Assembly: GCA_031177355.1 (NCBI GenBank)
Contig: JAPSGR010000020.1
Span: 1 to 35,315 of the forward strand
Direction: 5' to 3'
Length of the DNA stretch: 35,315 nt
From: Candidatus Nitrosocosmicus sp.
GTDB taxonomy: Archaea; Thermoproteota; Nitrososphaeria; Nitrososphaerales; Nitrososphaeraceae
Positions 12,051 through 23,209 of the stretch are shown here, one piece after another. Positions within the stretch are counted from its first letter, which is position 1; each line of letters begins with the position of its first letter. A program made the translations under genes and the position numbers. A model generated the notes under the pieces. The model saw only the letters and a program-made list of their open reading frames with translations, was not told where the DNA came from and ran no database searches.

Positions 12051-13103
12051 TTAGTTCTTGCTATTTTCCGTCGTGGCATTCTGCAACATTCTTGTAAGGT
12101 TCTCTTGCCAATCAACCATTTTCACAGGTTTTGTAATCGCAATATCTTTTCCATCTATGAGACTAGGCGTAGGCTCCGATACGTTAAAGTAGCCAATAGC
12201 GCCCCTGTCCTCAGGAATACCATGTTGGTGAAATACATATTTTCCCTCCCATGACCATTTCATTTCAAATATTGCGGCATCACCTGAAGATGTTGCCCAT
12301 GTTTGAGTGTGTATGGGTTCATTCATCCAGATACCCGAAATCCATGTCTTGAAGAGAGTTCCATGAACATGGTATCCATATGCTGGGAGTTGCGACAGAT
12401 TAATCATATATACTCTTGCTGTTTCATTGGTGTAAACTGGTAAGGGATTATCGTAGTAAATGTTTTCGTAGCCATTGTAGAAAGCACTTTCAGGATCCGA
12501 GGTGTGTATATCCTTTGTATCATAGTCACCAAATACTACCACAAATTCCTTGGCGGGTGGTAAAGGTGTCTTCGGGTCAACAATAAAAGCACCATATAAT
12601 CCCATTCTAACGTGCTCAACCACTGGCATCACATGGCAATGGTACATAAGAGCTCCTGATGGTGCCGCTGTAAACTCATAAGTAAATGTTTTGTTTGGTG
12701 CAACAATCTCAAATACCCCATCCATTGTGCCATTATGCCCACCATGAAAATGAATTGTGTGAGGTAAATCTAACTTGTTTATAAAATGGACTATTACCTT
12801 ATCTCCCTCTGTCACACGCAGGGTGGGTCCTGGAATGCTTCCATTGTATGTCCAAGCCTTTATTTTTTTGCTTGGAGATATATCAAGTATAGTTTCTTCG
12901 GCAATTAAGGTGAATTCTTTCGTATTTGAATCAGCAGTATCTATATTCGTGCTTGGGCCTGTTTGATTGTTAATTGTACTTGCTATTGCTTTATAATTAT
13001 CCAAATTATTAAGAGATAAGGTAATTAAAGAAAAACTTATCATTGCTATCAGCATTATTGCTTTTAACTTGTGAACGCCAATTGATAGAAACATACTATC
13101 CAT
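12051..13103 (-). CDS. Secreted two-domain multicopper oxidase (NirK/laccase-like), 350 aa
   Basis: An N-terminal hydrophobic segment (residues 13-31) directs the protein to the outside or anchors it. Two cupredoxin domains follow. Four HxH motifs are visible: H118/H120, H155/H157 (in HCH with C156), H245/H247 and H292/H294. C156, H164 and M167 give a type 1 copper site. Four HxH motifs suit a trinuclear copper cluster as in two-domain laccases. Thaumarchaeal nitrite reductase NirK belongs to the same broad family, so nitrite reduction, NO or hydroxylamine chemistry, or copper oxidation are all possible. The likely start is ATG 13103 or ATG 13094. It lies convergent with gdhA, 280 bases away. 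Family certain, substrate not. Confidence 0.88.
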   Translation of the reverse strand: MDSMFLSIGVHKLKAIMLIAMISFSLITLSLNNLDNYKAIASTINNQTGPSTNIDTADSNTKEFTLIAEETILDISPSKKIKAWTYNGSIPGPTLRVTEGDKVIVHFINKLDLPHTIHFHGGHNGTMDGVFEIVAPNKTFTYEFTAAPSGALMYHCHVMPVVEHVRMGLYGAFIVDPKTPLPPAKEFVVVFGDYDTKDIHTSDPESAFYNGYENIYYDNPLPVYTNETARVYMINLSQLPAYGYHVHGTLFKTWISGIWMNEPIHTQTWATSSGDAAIFEMKWSWEGKYVFHQHGIPEDRGAIGYFNVSEPTPSLIDGKDIAITKPVKMVDWQENLTRMLQNATTENSKN

Positions 13104-14918: not shown

Positions 14919-15141
14919 GATATGACAAGATTGTATCTAATAATTGATAATCAAATTCCGTTACAGATAAAGTATGATTCACTAAACTTTACAAAATTGA
15001 ATAGATTTACTTTCTCATAACGACATAATGGATATATTTCCTAATTTGATAGCCTCATTATTGATATAAATTTTAATCCTTAGGAAATGGTATAAGTAAA
15101 CAAAAAAAAATTAAAATAAAAACAACCTCTTTGTCACATAA

Positions 15142-15534
15142 ATTGCAATAGTAGCCACACTAGCTTTGCTAGCAAGCCCTATTGGCTATGAATAATGATG
15201 TCTGCTTAACCAAAATAAAAAGAAATAAGGCCACCCAGTCAATAGAGCAGTCACAATCATTGGTACAAAACTATCTGTGCACTTCTGGTGTAACTACCTT
15301 TATCTCGTGTAATAACTAGATTTTAAAACCAAAAACATGCCGGAAAAAAAGCCTTGGCACAACAATATGATGATGACAACGGGTGACAACTTCGCAGAAC
15401 AAAGCAACATCCAATCACAATCATCAAATCAAAACAGCCCGGTAATTTATGGTGGTTAAATAATAGGCGCTGGTAACGACATAAAAATTCAGAACCAAGA
15501 AACCTCTGGAAATGACGCATTAGCACAAAGTTAA
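15142..15534 (+). pseudogene. Decayed secreted Asn/Gln-rich repeat protein
   Basis: A signal-peptide-like stretch (IAIVATLALLASPIGYE, 15142 onward) is followed in the same direction, across several frames, by ATQSIEQSQSLVQNYLCTSG, then ALAQQYDDDNG, then DNFAEQSNIQSQSSNQNSPV, then IIGAGNDIKIQNQETSGNDA and LAQS. At least two in-frame TAA codons and two frameshifts interrupt it. Two repeat units are visible, each running from an EQS-IQSQS-QNS start to an ALAQ end. Thaumarchaeal genomes carry secreted proteins with such polar repeats of unknown role. The broken frames make an active product unlikely. Confidence 0.6.
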
Positions 15535-15644: not shown

Positions 15645-16844
15645 ATGATCGATAGAGAAAAGATAAATAACAATTCTTCTTACCGTTATGTAGGCTTAGT
15701 AACAGACATTAAAAGTGGAGTGTCTAAAAGTTATACTATTAGAACCGACGGTGAACAACATTTAGATATAGCAGTTTTTAATATCAATGGAAAGTTTCAT
15801 GCTATTTCTGATTCTTGTGCCCATAAAGGAGGGCCACTTAGTAAGGGGTTCCTTGAGGGAGATATAATCACATGTCCTTGGCATGGGTGGAAATACTCTG
15901 TGAAAACTGGTAAATCTGCTCATGAAGGCGGAGATAGCGTTAATTCATATGAAGTCAAGATAATAAAAAACAAGATATATGTAAATTCGATTCCCTCAAA
16001 TGTTGGAAAAAGAATATTTAAATCCTCTGAAGCCTATTTGAATTTAAAAAAATCTGTAGATGATTATTTAATTCTCAAGTCCAATAATAATATACTTCCT
16101 GTAGACGATAAAAAAGTAAGATTCCTTGGAATATCTACTACAAATTCAAATGATAAAGTAGCACCACGTAAAAGCACATCAGAAGATGCATTACATTTTG
16201 CATTAGAATATGCCAAAAAAAATTTAGAGGCAGAAACTGTCATGATTAAACTTCGTGATTTAGAATTTAATCACTGCGAAGGGTATTATTCAAAGAACCC
16301 TAATGCCTGTATTTTTCCCTGCACAATTTCAGAAAGAGATAGTGAAGATCAGATGATCCAAATTTATGAAAAAGTAATCCTGTGGGCTGATATAGTATTA
16401 ATTGCCACTCCAATAAGATGGGGTAGTGCCAGCTCATTATACTACAAAATGATTCAAAGAATGAACTGCGTTCAAAATCAAATAATTTCACATGATCGAT
16501 ATCTCATAAGAGATAAAGTTGCTGCTTTCATAATTACAGGAGGTCAGGATAATGTTCAACATGTCGCTGGGGAACTAATGTCATTTTGGTCACAATTGGG
16601 CTTTGTATTTGGTAAATTTCCATTCGTTGGTTGGACCAGAGGATGGTATGCTGAAGATACAGAAAATAATTATGATGCAATGACCTCAAGCTTAAAGAAC
16701 AACACTAGTGTCTCAAAAGAATACCAAAATTCTAAAATGTATAACGATTTGGTCAAAACAATAAATGGTGCATTGGAAATGTCTTTACTTGTAAAACGAA
16801 ATAAATATGATCAAACCGTTTTACACAGATCAAATAATGCTTAA
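15645..16844 (+). CDS. Rieske [2Fe-2S] domain fused to an NADPH-FMN-reductase-like flavodoxin domain, 399 aa
   Basis: Residues 12-113 form a Rieske ferredoxin: C58 and H60 in CAHKGGPLSKGF and C77 and H80 in CPWHGWKYS bind the cluster. After a linker of about 45 residues, residues 157-385 form a flavodoxin-like oxidoreductase. It has IATPIRWGSASSLYYKM (253-269) and FIITGGQDN (295-303), which form the FMN pocket, and a cysteine group C211, C222, C226 (HCEGYY and NACIFPC) seen in a subset of these flavoproteins. The stand-alone flavodoxin-like enzymes are widespread. The fusion would let electrons pass between FMN and the Rieske cluster. Start is ATG 15645. The gene is monocistronic. Donor and acceptor are unknown. 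Confidence 0.88.
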   Translation: MIDREKINNNSSYRYVGLVTDIKSGVSKSYTIRTDGEQHLDIAVFNINGKFHAISDSCAHKGGPLSKGFLEGDIITCPWHGWKYSVKTGKSAHEGGDSVNSYEVKIIKNKIYVNSIPSNVGKRIFKSSEAYLNLKKSVDDYLILKSNNNILPVDDKKVRFLGISTTNSNDKVAPRKSTSEDALHFALEYAKKNLEAETVMIKLRDLEFNHCEGYYSKNPNACIFPCTISERDSEDQMIQIYEKVILWADIVLIATPIRWGSASSLYYKMIQRMNCVQNQIISHDRYLIRDKVAAFIITGGQDNVQHVAGELMSFWSQLGFVFGKFPFVGWTRGWYAEDTENNYDAMTSSLKNNTSVSKEYQNSKMYNDLVKTINGALEMSLLVKRNKYDQTVLHRSNNA

Positions 16845-21088: not shown

Positions 21089-23209
21089 ATGCTTAGTGAG
21101 AAATTTGAACTAAAGAAAACCTTTGCTGAAAGTTATAATCCTTTATGTATTGGGAATCCTGGGCCTCCAAAATTGAATGGTACTTGTAAAGTAATTCAGC
21201 TAACGGGAGATACCGATAGGGAACGAAATTGCAAAACAAATAATCAAACAGCCAGCAGATACAAAATATATGGAACTGATTTAGGAGTCTCTTTTCCTTA
21301 TGATGGAAAATTATATTTCCTTTTCGGAGATACTACTAGACGGGGACCAGAAGAAGGTCTTCCGCAGACAGCTTTACCTGGCACGCATTTTAATGAGGAT
21401 GAAACTGATTATGATGCGATTGCATATTCTACAAGTGAGAGTGCCCAACTAGGAATATCATTGACATTTAATTCATCGCCGCCAATAGTAGATAATATTT
21501 CCCAATTAACTGCAGAACATCCAATTGAAGGTCTTGGTATTGGTAATGAAATGTATGTTTATTTTACAACTGATATGTATAAAGAGAAAAGAATTATGCC
21601 TACACGCACAGTATTGGCAAGGTCGGTAGATGGAGGATACTCATTTGGAAATTCATTATATACTCTATCAACCAATAAATTTATTCACGTTTCGGTTCAA
21701 ATAATTGAAAATAATAAAATAAATGGCTTACCAAAAAAAACTGGATATGGATTACTAATATGGGGAACAGGAAAATATAGACAAAGTGATCTTTACTTGG
21801 CCTATATGCCATTAGAGGATCTTGCGACTAGATCTTCGATCTTTTACTTTGCTGGATTTCAAGAAAATTCTAACGAACCTGATTGGAAATTAGATGAGGT
21901 TCATGCCAAAGAATTATTTTCGGCTGGATGTATAGGAGAACTTTCCATAAGATGGAATTATTTTTTAGACAAATGGGTTATGCTATACAATTGTGATCTT
22001 TGTAACCTGAGTGGAATAGTTGTTAAAACTGCTGATAAACCGTGGGGTCCATGGTCTCCTTCAAAAATCGTGTTTGAAAATTCAGATGCATATGGACATT
22101 TTATTCATAAGCCTGGGTTTGATAAACTCCATGATAAAGACCGTGATCATGAGACTAATCCATTTGATATAGGATATGCTTATGGTCCTTATCAAATTGC
22201 TCCTTATGCTTCTGGTATTCGAGGACGCTATACAAAAATTTACTATACATTATCCACATGGAATCCTTATCAGGTTGTCCAGATGTCATCAATTCTTCTC
22301 AGTGAACAGGAGGAGAGAAATCCTTTGCCTTATGCATCTACTGTATTTGATAGAAATGATAGGAAGTTTGCCTATGTATCTGTTTTGATAACCCATTTGG
22401 CCAAAACAAAAAAAATTACTTTTGATGACGTCATAGATAAAAGCATCTTTATCGCAGATCAAATAGAATGGGCTCAGTTTCATGATTATAGACAATTACG
22501 TTCTGCATTGAAAAAGAAATTTGACACATTATTTACTAATTTGGTTTCTGTAGGGGATAAGGCCGAAGCATTTGCTGCCATTGCTTCAGCAGTTCTTCGA
22601 TTATCATTTGATTATGAATCATTTAGAAATACAGTAAATATAGAGGTGTATAGAAAGTGGGCTTTACGACTTATTACTAGCGGAAAAAAACACCTTTTAG
22701 TAGAGGAAATAAATAGATATATAGATTCGAGAGGATTTTTACCTGACCATAATTATTTATGTTATGCATATGATTATAATGATCCAAATGAATTTAAATA
22801 TGCACGGCTATGTGTTTTAAAAGATAAACTATTATCTGGTAAATCAAATAACAAAATGGAATTTGAATGTGATTTTTCAACAACTATTTCATACATTACA
22901 TGGGCTCGTTTTAGGCATAAGTCAGAGTTACAAATGGACTTGATGACAAAATTTAAAGAAATGTTTAATTCATTTTCAAATAAGTCTGATATAATCCAGG
23001 CATATAGTCAAATTGTAAAAACAATAAAAGACTTATCTTCTAACAATAAATTGATCGAACCTGTTTCTGATTATTACAACTGGGCATCAGATATTGCTCA
23101 AAGTCACAACTTGGACTTGATTATCAATAATCTATCTAATTATATTTATGATGAAGAATTCCTTGTTTTTTGTCCATCTAACAATATTCCTAATCAAAGG
23201 AGATCATAG
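21089..23209 (+). CDS. DUF4185-like beta-propeller protein with an unknown helical C-terminal domain, 706 aa
   Basis: Residues about 35-410 resemble DUF4185, a five-bladed-propeller family related to glycosidases: TGDTDRERN (39-47), YGTDLGVSFPYDGKLYFLFG then DT (61-82), an Asp-box-like SVDGGYSFGN (179-188), a WGTGKYR motif, and YAYGPYQIAPY late in the domain. Residues about 430-706 are predicted mostly helical, polar, with two tyrosine-rich stretches, and match nothing I recognise. There is no signal peptide, so it is probably cytoplasmic, which is unusual for a carbohydrate-active propeller. Start is ATG 21089. Enzymatic activity is unproven for DUF4185 in this lineage. Confidence 0.75.
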   Translation: MLSEKFELKKTFAESYNPLCIGNPGPPKLNGTCKVIQLTGDTDRERNCKTNNQTASRYKIYGTDLGVSFPYDGKLYFLFGDTTRRGPEEGLPQTALPGTHFNEDETDYDAIAYSTSESAQLGISLTFNSSPPIVDNISQLTAEHPIEGLGIGNEMYVYFTTDMYKEKRIMPTRTVLARSVDGGYSFGNSLYTLSTNKFIHVSVQIIENNKINGLPKKTGYGLLIWGTGKYRQSDLYLAYMPLEDLATRSSIFYFAGFQENSNEPDWKLDEVHAKELFSAGCIGELSIRWNYFLDKWVMLYNCDLCNLSGIVVKTADKPWGPWSPSKIVFENSDAYGHFIHKPGFDKLHDKDRDHETNPFDIGYAYGPYQIAPYASGIRGRYTKIYYTLSTWNPYQVVQMSSILLSEQEERNPLPYASTVFDRNDRKFAYVSVLITHLAKTKKITFDDVIDKSIFIADQIEWAQFHDYRQLRSALKKKFDTLFTNLVSVGDKAEAFAAIASAVLRLSFDYESFRNTVNIEVYRKWALRLITSGKKHLLVEEINRYIDSRGFLPDHNYLCYAYDYNDPNEFKYARLCVLKDKLLSGKSNNKMEFECDFSTTISYITWARFRHKSELQMDLMTKFKEMFNSFSNKSDIIQAYSQIVKTIKDLSSNNKLIEPVSDYYNWASDIAQSHNLDLIINNLSNYIYDEEFLVFCPSNNIPNQRRS

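Follow-up and report, generated by a model that had tools for sequence, protein, structure and literature searches.

Does a gene of Candidatus Nitrosocosmicus sp. (GenBank assembly GCA_031177355.1, contig JAPSGR010000020.1) truly join a Rieske iron-sulfur domain to an FMN-reductase-like flavodoxin domain, and if it does, what would the resulting protein do? The initial annotation of this stretch of DNA, which we analyzed over its full length of 35,315 nucleotides (the window), had proposed such a one-polypeptide fusion. Our results reveal that the Rieske-FMN_red fusion is real and conserved (Table 1). Specifically, Pfam matched PF00355 to residues 16-93 of the window protein (E 3.2e-15; 56.3 bits against a gathering cut-off of 20.3) and PF03358 to residues 175-321 (E 1.9e-11; 44.2 bits against a cut-off of 24). 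The residues that had been singled out (C58, H60, C77, H80, C211, C222, and C226) are where they were said to be and are invariant in 33 of 33 aligned full-length homologues, and both the Rieske ligands and the FMN-pocket motifs are intact and conserved across phyla. Across genomes, 43 distinct homologues have the same domain order in a single frame. With this many homologues carrying both domains in one frame, an annotation artefact made of two separate genes is ruled out. Furthermore, when three Nitrosocosmicus orthologues were each compared with the fusion gene, dN/dS came to 0.115, 0.157, and 0.125 and changes predominated at third positions, a pattern (dN/dS of 0.12-0.16) that indicates purifying selection across the whole reading frame. 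AlphaFold2, run on 33 sequences, recovered both folds (mean pLDDT 81, pTM 0.75), joined by a linker whose length is reduced in the aligned proteins from bacteria and Nitrosopumilaceae.

Table 1. Positions of the fusion gene and its parts in the window
Feature	Position	Strand	Evidence
Rieske-FMN_red fusion gene	15645..16844	+	one uninterrupted ORF, ATG to stop, 399 aa
Rieske [2Fe-2S] ferredoxin domain, aa 16-114	15690..15986	+	PF00355, phmmer, Foldseek
Rieske box I, C58-A-H60	15816..15824	+	invariant in all homologues
Rieske box II, C77-P-W-H80, without disulfide Cys	15873..15884	+	invariant in all homologues
Linker, aa 115-156, with predicted helix at aa 129-147	15987..16112	+	model secondary structure, alignment
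FMN_red/flavodoxin-fold domain, aa 157-350	16113..16694	+	PF03358; Foldseek to RosB, SsuE, WrbA, AzoR, NQO
Three-cysteine loop, C211-EGYYSKNPNA-C222-IFP-C226	16275..16322	+	invariant in fused family; aligned with four-Cys relatives
P256-I-R-W-G-x-x-SSL flavin-site loop	16410..16439	+	invariant alignment columns
G299-G-Q-D-N303 flavin-site loop	16539..16553	+	invariant alignment columns
C-terminal helix and subfamily-specific tail	16695..16841	+	model, alignment

Full-length homologues of the fusion occur in Nitrosocosmicus, other Nitrososphaeraceae, a few Nitrosopumilaceae, Omnitrophota, and Alphaproteobacteria. One is encoded on a Methylocystis plasmid and is annotated publicly as no more than "Rieske 2Fe-2S domain-containing protein." The carriers comprise soil ammonia-oxidizing archaea (AOA) and scattered bacteria. 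Members of the window protein's own archaeal subfamily are about 57-80% identical to it, and those of a second archaeal subfamily about 45%. The Rieske linkage of this flavin subfamily is obligate. In a survey of 300 Nitrososphaeria genomes, 289 class-mates of an alphaproteobacterial carrier, and 193 phylum-mates of an Omnitrophota carrier, no intact stand-alone version was found. Scores of the flavin half in these genomes were bimodal, with intact strong matches at E<1e-99 in frames of 348-419 aa and the next matches, broken-copy fragments apart, at ~1e-20; all of the intact strong matches that were checked have the Rieske motif. Among the 300 Nitrososphaeria genomes, flavin-half profile matches of fused strength, broken or truncated copies counted, were found in ~26 of 45 Nitrososphaeraceae and in only 7 Nitrosopumilaceae. 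Broken copies (L011, L016, L017, L018, L102, L134, and L135) could mimic two genes in some assemblies. Those interrupted by frameshifts or stops (L102, L134, L135, and L018) include copies in single-contig, near-complete genomes, and the occurrence of several broken copies, two of them in such genomes (G109 and G132), shows that some lineages can do without the gene. In a maximum-likelihood tree, a branch with 100/99 support sets all fused flavin halves apart, and the tree of the Rieske halves is weakly compatible with a single origin (support 72/87). There is no clean split between archaeal and bacterial members, a pattern suggestive of horizontal transfer.

The cluster had initially been described as high-potential, a description that the Rieske half does not bear out. 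Its loops follow the pattern CxHx16-20CPWH across the fused family (CxHxGGPL ... CPWHGW in the window protein), and the disulfide cysteines of bc1/b6f-type proteins (CTHxGC ... CPCHGS) are absent from the window protein and from all homologues checked; on this basis the Rieske half is of the ferredoxin type. From a loop of this type, a cluster of low potential would be expected, at around -100 to -160 mV. In agreement with this assignment, phmmer matched the Rieske half to the CarAc ferredoxin 1vck (E 1.3e-10), and Foldseek placed the first half of the model with the Rieske ferredoxins CarAc and BphA3 (4nbb/2de5/1vck). The contrast between the two types is real, since a bc1-type loop (CTHLGC...CPCHGS) is present elsewhere in the same genome, in the C-terminal Rieske domain of a 577-aa DAO-family FAD oxidoreductase (L161:1574-3304, contig C52). 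In one Omnitrophota carrier genome, the fused protein was the only Rieske protein found, indicating that it needs no other Rieske partner.

The flavin half retains a set of invariant flavin-site motifs in the full-length homologue alignment (R175/S177/S179, P256-I-R-W-G260, S263-S264, and G299-G-Q-D-N303), and conservation of this pocket suggests that the fused protein binds FMN. In the full-length model, Foldseek matched this half to RosB; modeled alone, it reached a pTM of 0.68 and was matched to RosB, then to SsuE, WrbA, AzoR, and NQO. It also holds the cysteine group that had been noted as extra. The three cysteines are indeed present, and they are invariant, with CX10CX3C spacing, in all 43 distinct fused-family ORFs, where the loop has the consensus C-[EG]-G-[YF]-Y-S-x4-A-C-x2-P-C. 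Yet they are not merely extra, for the triad sits at an Isf-type [4Fe-4S] motif minus one ligand. In iron-sulfur flavoproteins (Isf), the [4Fe-4S] ligand set is CX2CX2CX5-7C (PMC3164229). Distant stand-alone homologues from other Thermoproteota have four cysteines in the same loop, either as PCxGC(V/L/A)SxxxxxCxxPC, that is, CX2CX7CX3C (L130, L132, and L136-L150), or in the compact form CX2CX2CX5C (L151-L154, L157, and others). The fused family does not match the compact Isf motif (CX2CX2CX4-7C); at the position of the second cysteine (214), the 43 ORFs have Tyr (34) or Phe (9) and never Cys. In these alignments, the fused protein keeps ligands 1, 3, and 4 of an Isf-type [4Fe-4S] site, with ligand 2 replaced by an aromatic residue. 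D232, D235, Y215, and S216 are as invariant as the cysteines, and retention of an unvarying triad argues against simple loss of the site. In both models, full-length and flavin half alone, the loop is among the least confident regions.

What, then, might the protein do? With a probability that we put at roughly 0.55, the protein works in the cytosol as a soluble flavoenzyme that moves electrons along the path NAD(P)H→FMN→Rieske, is the product of a single-origin fusion, and has a remodeled third redox site. An FMN-reductase domain of the Isf/WrbA-like kind would have acquired, once, a low-potential Rieske-type ferredoxin at its N-terminus. From there, we infer cofactor binding, electron direction, donor, and acceptor as follows: NAD(P)H, or some other donor of two electrons, would reduce the bound FMN, single electrons would pass from FMN to the Rieske cluster, and the cluster would hand them to an external acceptor or, in the reverse direction, serve as the point of electron entry. 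The three-cysteine loop, which would lie next to the FMN, could hold a site-differentiated Fe-S cluster with one non-cysteine ligand, or it could be an Fe-S site whose relay role has passed to the Rieske domain. Other AOA genomes encode a second Rieske fusion, in which an N-terminal Rieske ferredoxin precedes an FNR-type reductase (L160:999-2108, L162:1090-2289, and L163:811-1923). This independent fusion is a parallel way of wiring NAD(P)H and flavin to a Rieske cluster, and its existence in related archaea makes the same route the most economical mechanism here. A search of the window's own genome hit Rieske domains only and no copy of this second fusion. The patchy presence of the Rieske-FMN_red gene, along with its broken copies, suggests an accessory reductase, perhaps related to stress or detoxification.

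An argument can be made against the electron-transfer reading from the surroundings of the gene, which point to no consistent pathway: neighbor clustering over 31 loci found no conserved neighbor. That the gene lacks an operon partner, as had been stated, is true in the window, where no same-strand neighbor is near enough for an operon, and it is true of most loci elsewhere; it fails for two alphaproteobacterial metagenome-assembled genomes (L020:264-5984 and L021). There, a tight row of genes encodes a type 2A encapsulin (SrpI-like), a class V aminotransferase that is cysteine-desulfurase-like with a long Ala/Met/Pro-rich N-terminus, a Coq4-like protein, the Rieske-flavoprotein, and pterin-4a-carbinolamine dehydratase. 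On the plasmid of Methylocystis sp. MJC1 (L082:10112-12711), the fusion gene directly follows a gene for NAD-dependent formate dehydrogenase, amid transposases. Isolated neighbors, each found at one or two loci only, include MsrA/MsrB (adjoining in L087, three to four genes off in L092), rubrerythrin-like proteins at Omnitrophota loci (L019/L120 and L121), and a ChrB_C protein with an MFS transporter (L088). Such neighbors are suggestive, being compatible with a part in stress or redox processes without establishing one. Upstream in the window, the opposite strand encodes an SBF-family transporter. Between it and the fusion gene (15127-15531) is a small gene for an N/Q/S-rich repeat protein, decayed by stops and frame changes, which is intact just upstream of the fusion orthologue in two other Nitrosocosmicus genomes (L085 and L086). 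Two genes away from the fusion gene, the opposite strand of the window encodes a multicopper oxidase (350 aa; 12051-13103), and a DUF4185-domain protein of 706 aa is encoded at 21089-23209. A scan for sigma-70-type promoters, which is not applicable to archaea, gave results near chance, and no Rfam or tRNA hits were obtained in the window.

The loop leaves room for two other accounts of the third site. The Rieske domain may have replaced an ancestral, O2-labile [4Fe-4S] cluster within the flavin domain when the lineage became aerobic, so that the remaining three cysteines would serve a structural or thiol-redox purpose or bind a metal (e.g., Zn). AOA carriers are aerobes, and exactly one of four cysteines was lost on the same branch on which the Rieske domain was gained. 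However, the Omnitrophota that carry the gene probably live without oxygen, the triad does not vary in any copy, beyond what a relict would need, and the tree fixes neither a root nor an order of cysteine loss and Rieske gain, leaving such a swap possible at best. Alternatively, the triad could bind a [4Fe-4S] cluster, with D232, Tyr, or solvent as the fourth ligand, or a [3Fe-4S] cluster, placing FMN between two Fe-S sites and offering an open iron as a possible substrate site. This three-cluster relay would explain the invariance of C211, C222, C226, D232, D235, Y215, and S216, and the position of the triad coincides with the Isf-type [4Fe-4S] motif, CX2CX2CX5-7C (PMC3164229). Its evidence comes from sequence, though, for a loop that the models place with low confidence and that has no three-cysteine counterpart in any solved relative; we regard it as tentative, with the odds against it. 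The broadest version, a previously undescribed three-centre enzyme in which a Rieske [2Fe-2S] cluster, FMN, and a site-differentiated three-cysteine Fe-S cluster share one soluble, obligately fused chain common to aerobic AOA and presumably anaerobic Omnitrophota, is doubtful.

The remaining alternatives give the protein a different task altogether. That the Rieske half is nearest to the ferredoxins of ring-hydroxylating dioxygenases raises the idea of a one-chain ferredoxin and reductase supplying electrons to a Rieske non-haem iron oxygenase. A scan for PF00848, the C-terminal domain of ring-hydroxylating oxygenases and the only such C-terminal family covered, found nothing in any of 17 archaeal genomes, of which 15 carry the fusion. 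This absence speaks against a role as reductase of an oxygenase; several PF00848 proteins occur in one alphaproteobacterial carrier, none adjoining the fusion gene. We consider such a supply role improbable. RosB, the best match of the flavin half in both sequence and fold, uses flavin as a substrate and not as a redox cofactor, which, for the closest solved structure, counts against the electron-transfer reading. By analogy, FMN could be the substrate of a flavin-modifying enzyme whose Rieske domain supplies or accepts electrons. Yet the similarity to RosB is low (17-20% identity, TM about 0.6), the cysteine loop is absent from RosB-like plasmid proteins, and the surroundings of the fusion gene showed no genes of roseoflavin type, all of which make a RosB-like activity very improbable.

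In the open literature searched, nothing was found on a Rieske plus FMN-reductase/flavodoxin architecture, and the protein is apparently undescribed there, as a novel combination of known building blocks and not a categorically new system. It adds a conserved, uncharacterized redox enzyme to the AOA, a group in which little is known about soluble electron-transfer proteins, and if the triad does still bind a cluster, the cofactor arrangement would be new. With the Rieske ferredoxins of dioxygenase systems (CarAc, BphA3, HcaC, and NirD) the fused protein has in common the CxHx16CxxH loop, fold, and sequence, whereas it is covalently joined to a flavodoxin-fold reductase and has no PF00848 partner in the archaeal carriers. 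RosB (PDB 5mji), the best-matching solved structure, resembles the flavin half in the ADI-ATPI and KVA-GG/GNxD motifs through a partial sequence match (E 2e-8, 17-20% identity), but it lacks the cysteine loop and the Rieske domain and takes FMN as a substrate. The Rieske-FNR fusions likewise combine an N-terminal Rieske ferredoxin and a flavin/NAD reductase in one chain, although their reductase half has an unrelated FAD_binding_6/NAD_binding_1 fold. No Isf model or structure directly matched the fused protein. Isf and other Cys-loop FMN_red proteins nevertheless have the same FMN_red fold and a cysteine cluster in the same loop, ahead of DD/aD-P-x-x-W motifs, and the stand-alone Thermoproteota relatives align with the fused protein through that loop. 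Compared with Isf, the fused protein has three of the four cysteines (Tyr or Phe in place of the second, giving CX10CX3C) and an added Rieske domain, and it offers a natural case in which the four-cysteine loop of a flavoprotein lost one ligand on the same branch as the fusion to a Rieske ferredoxin.
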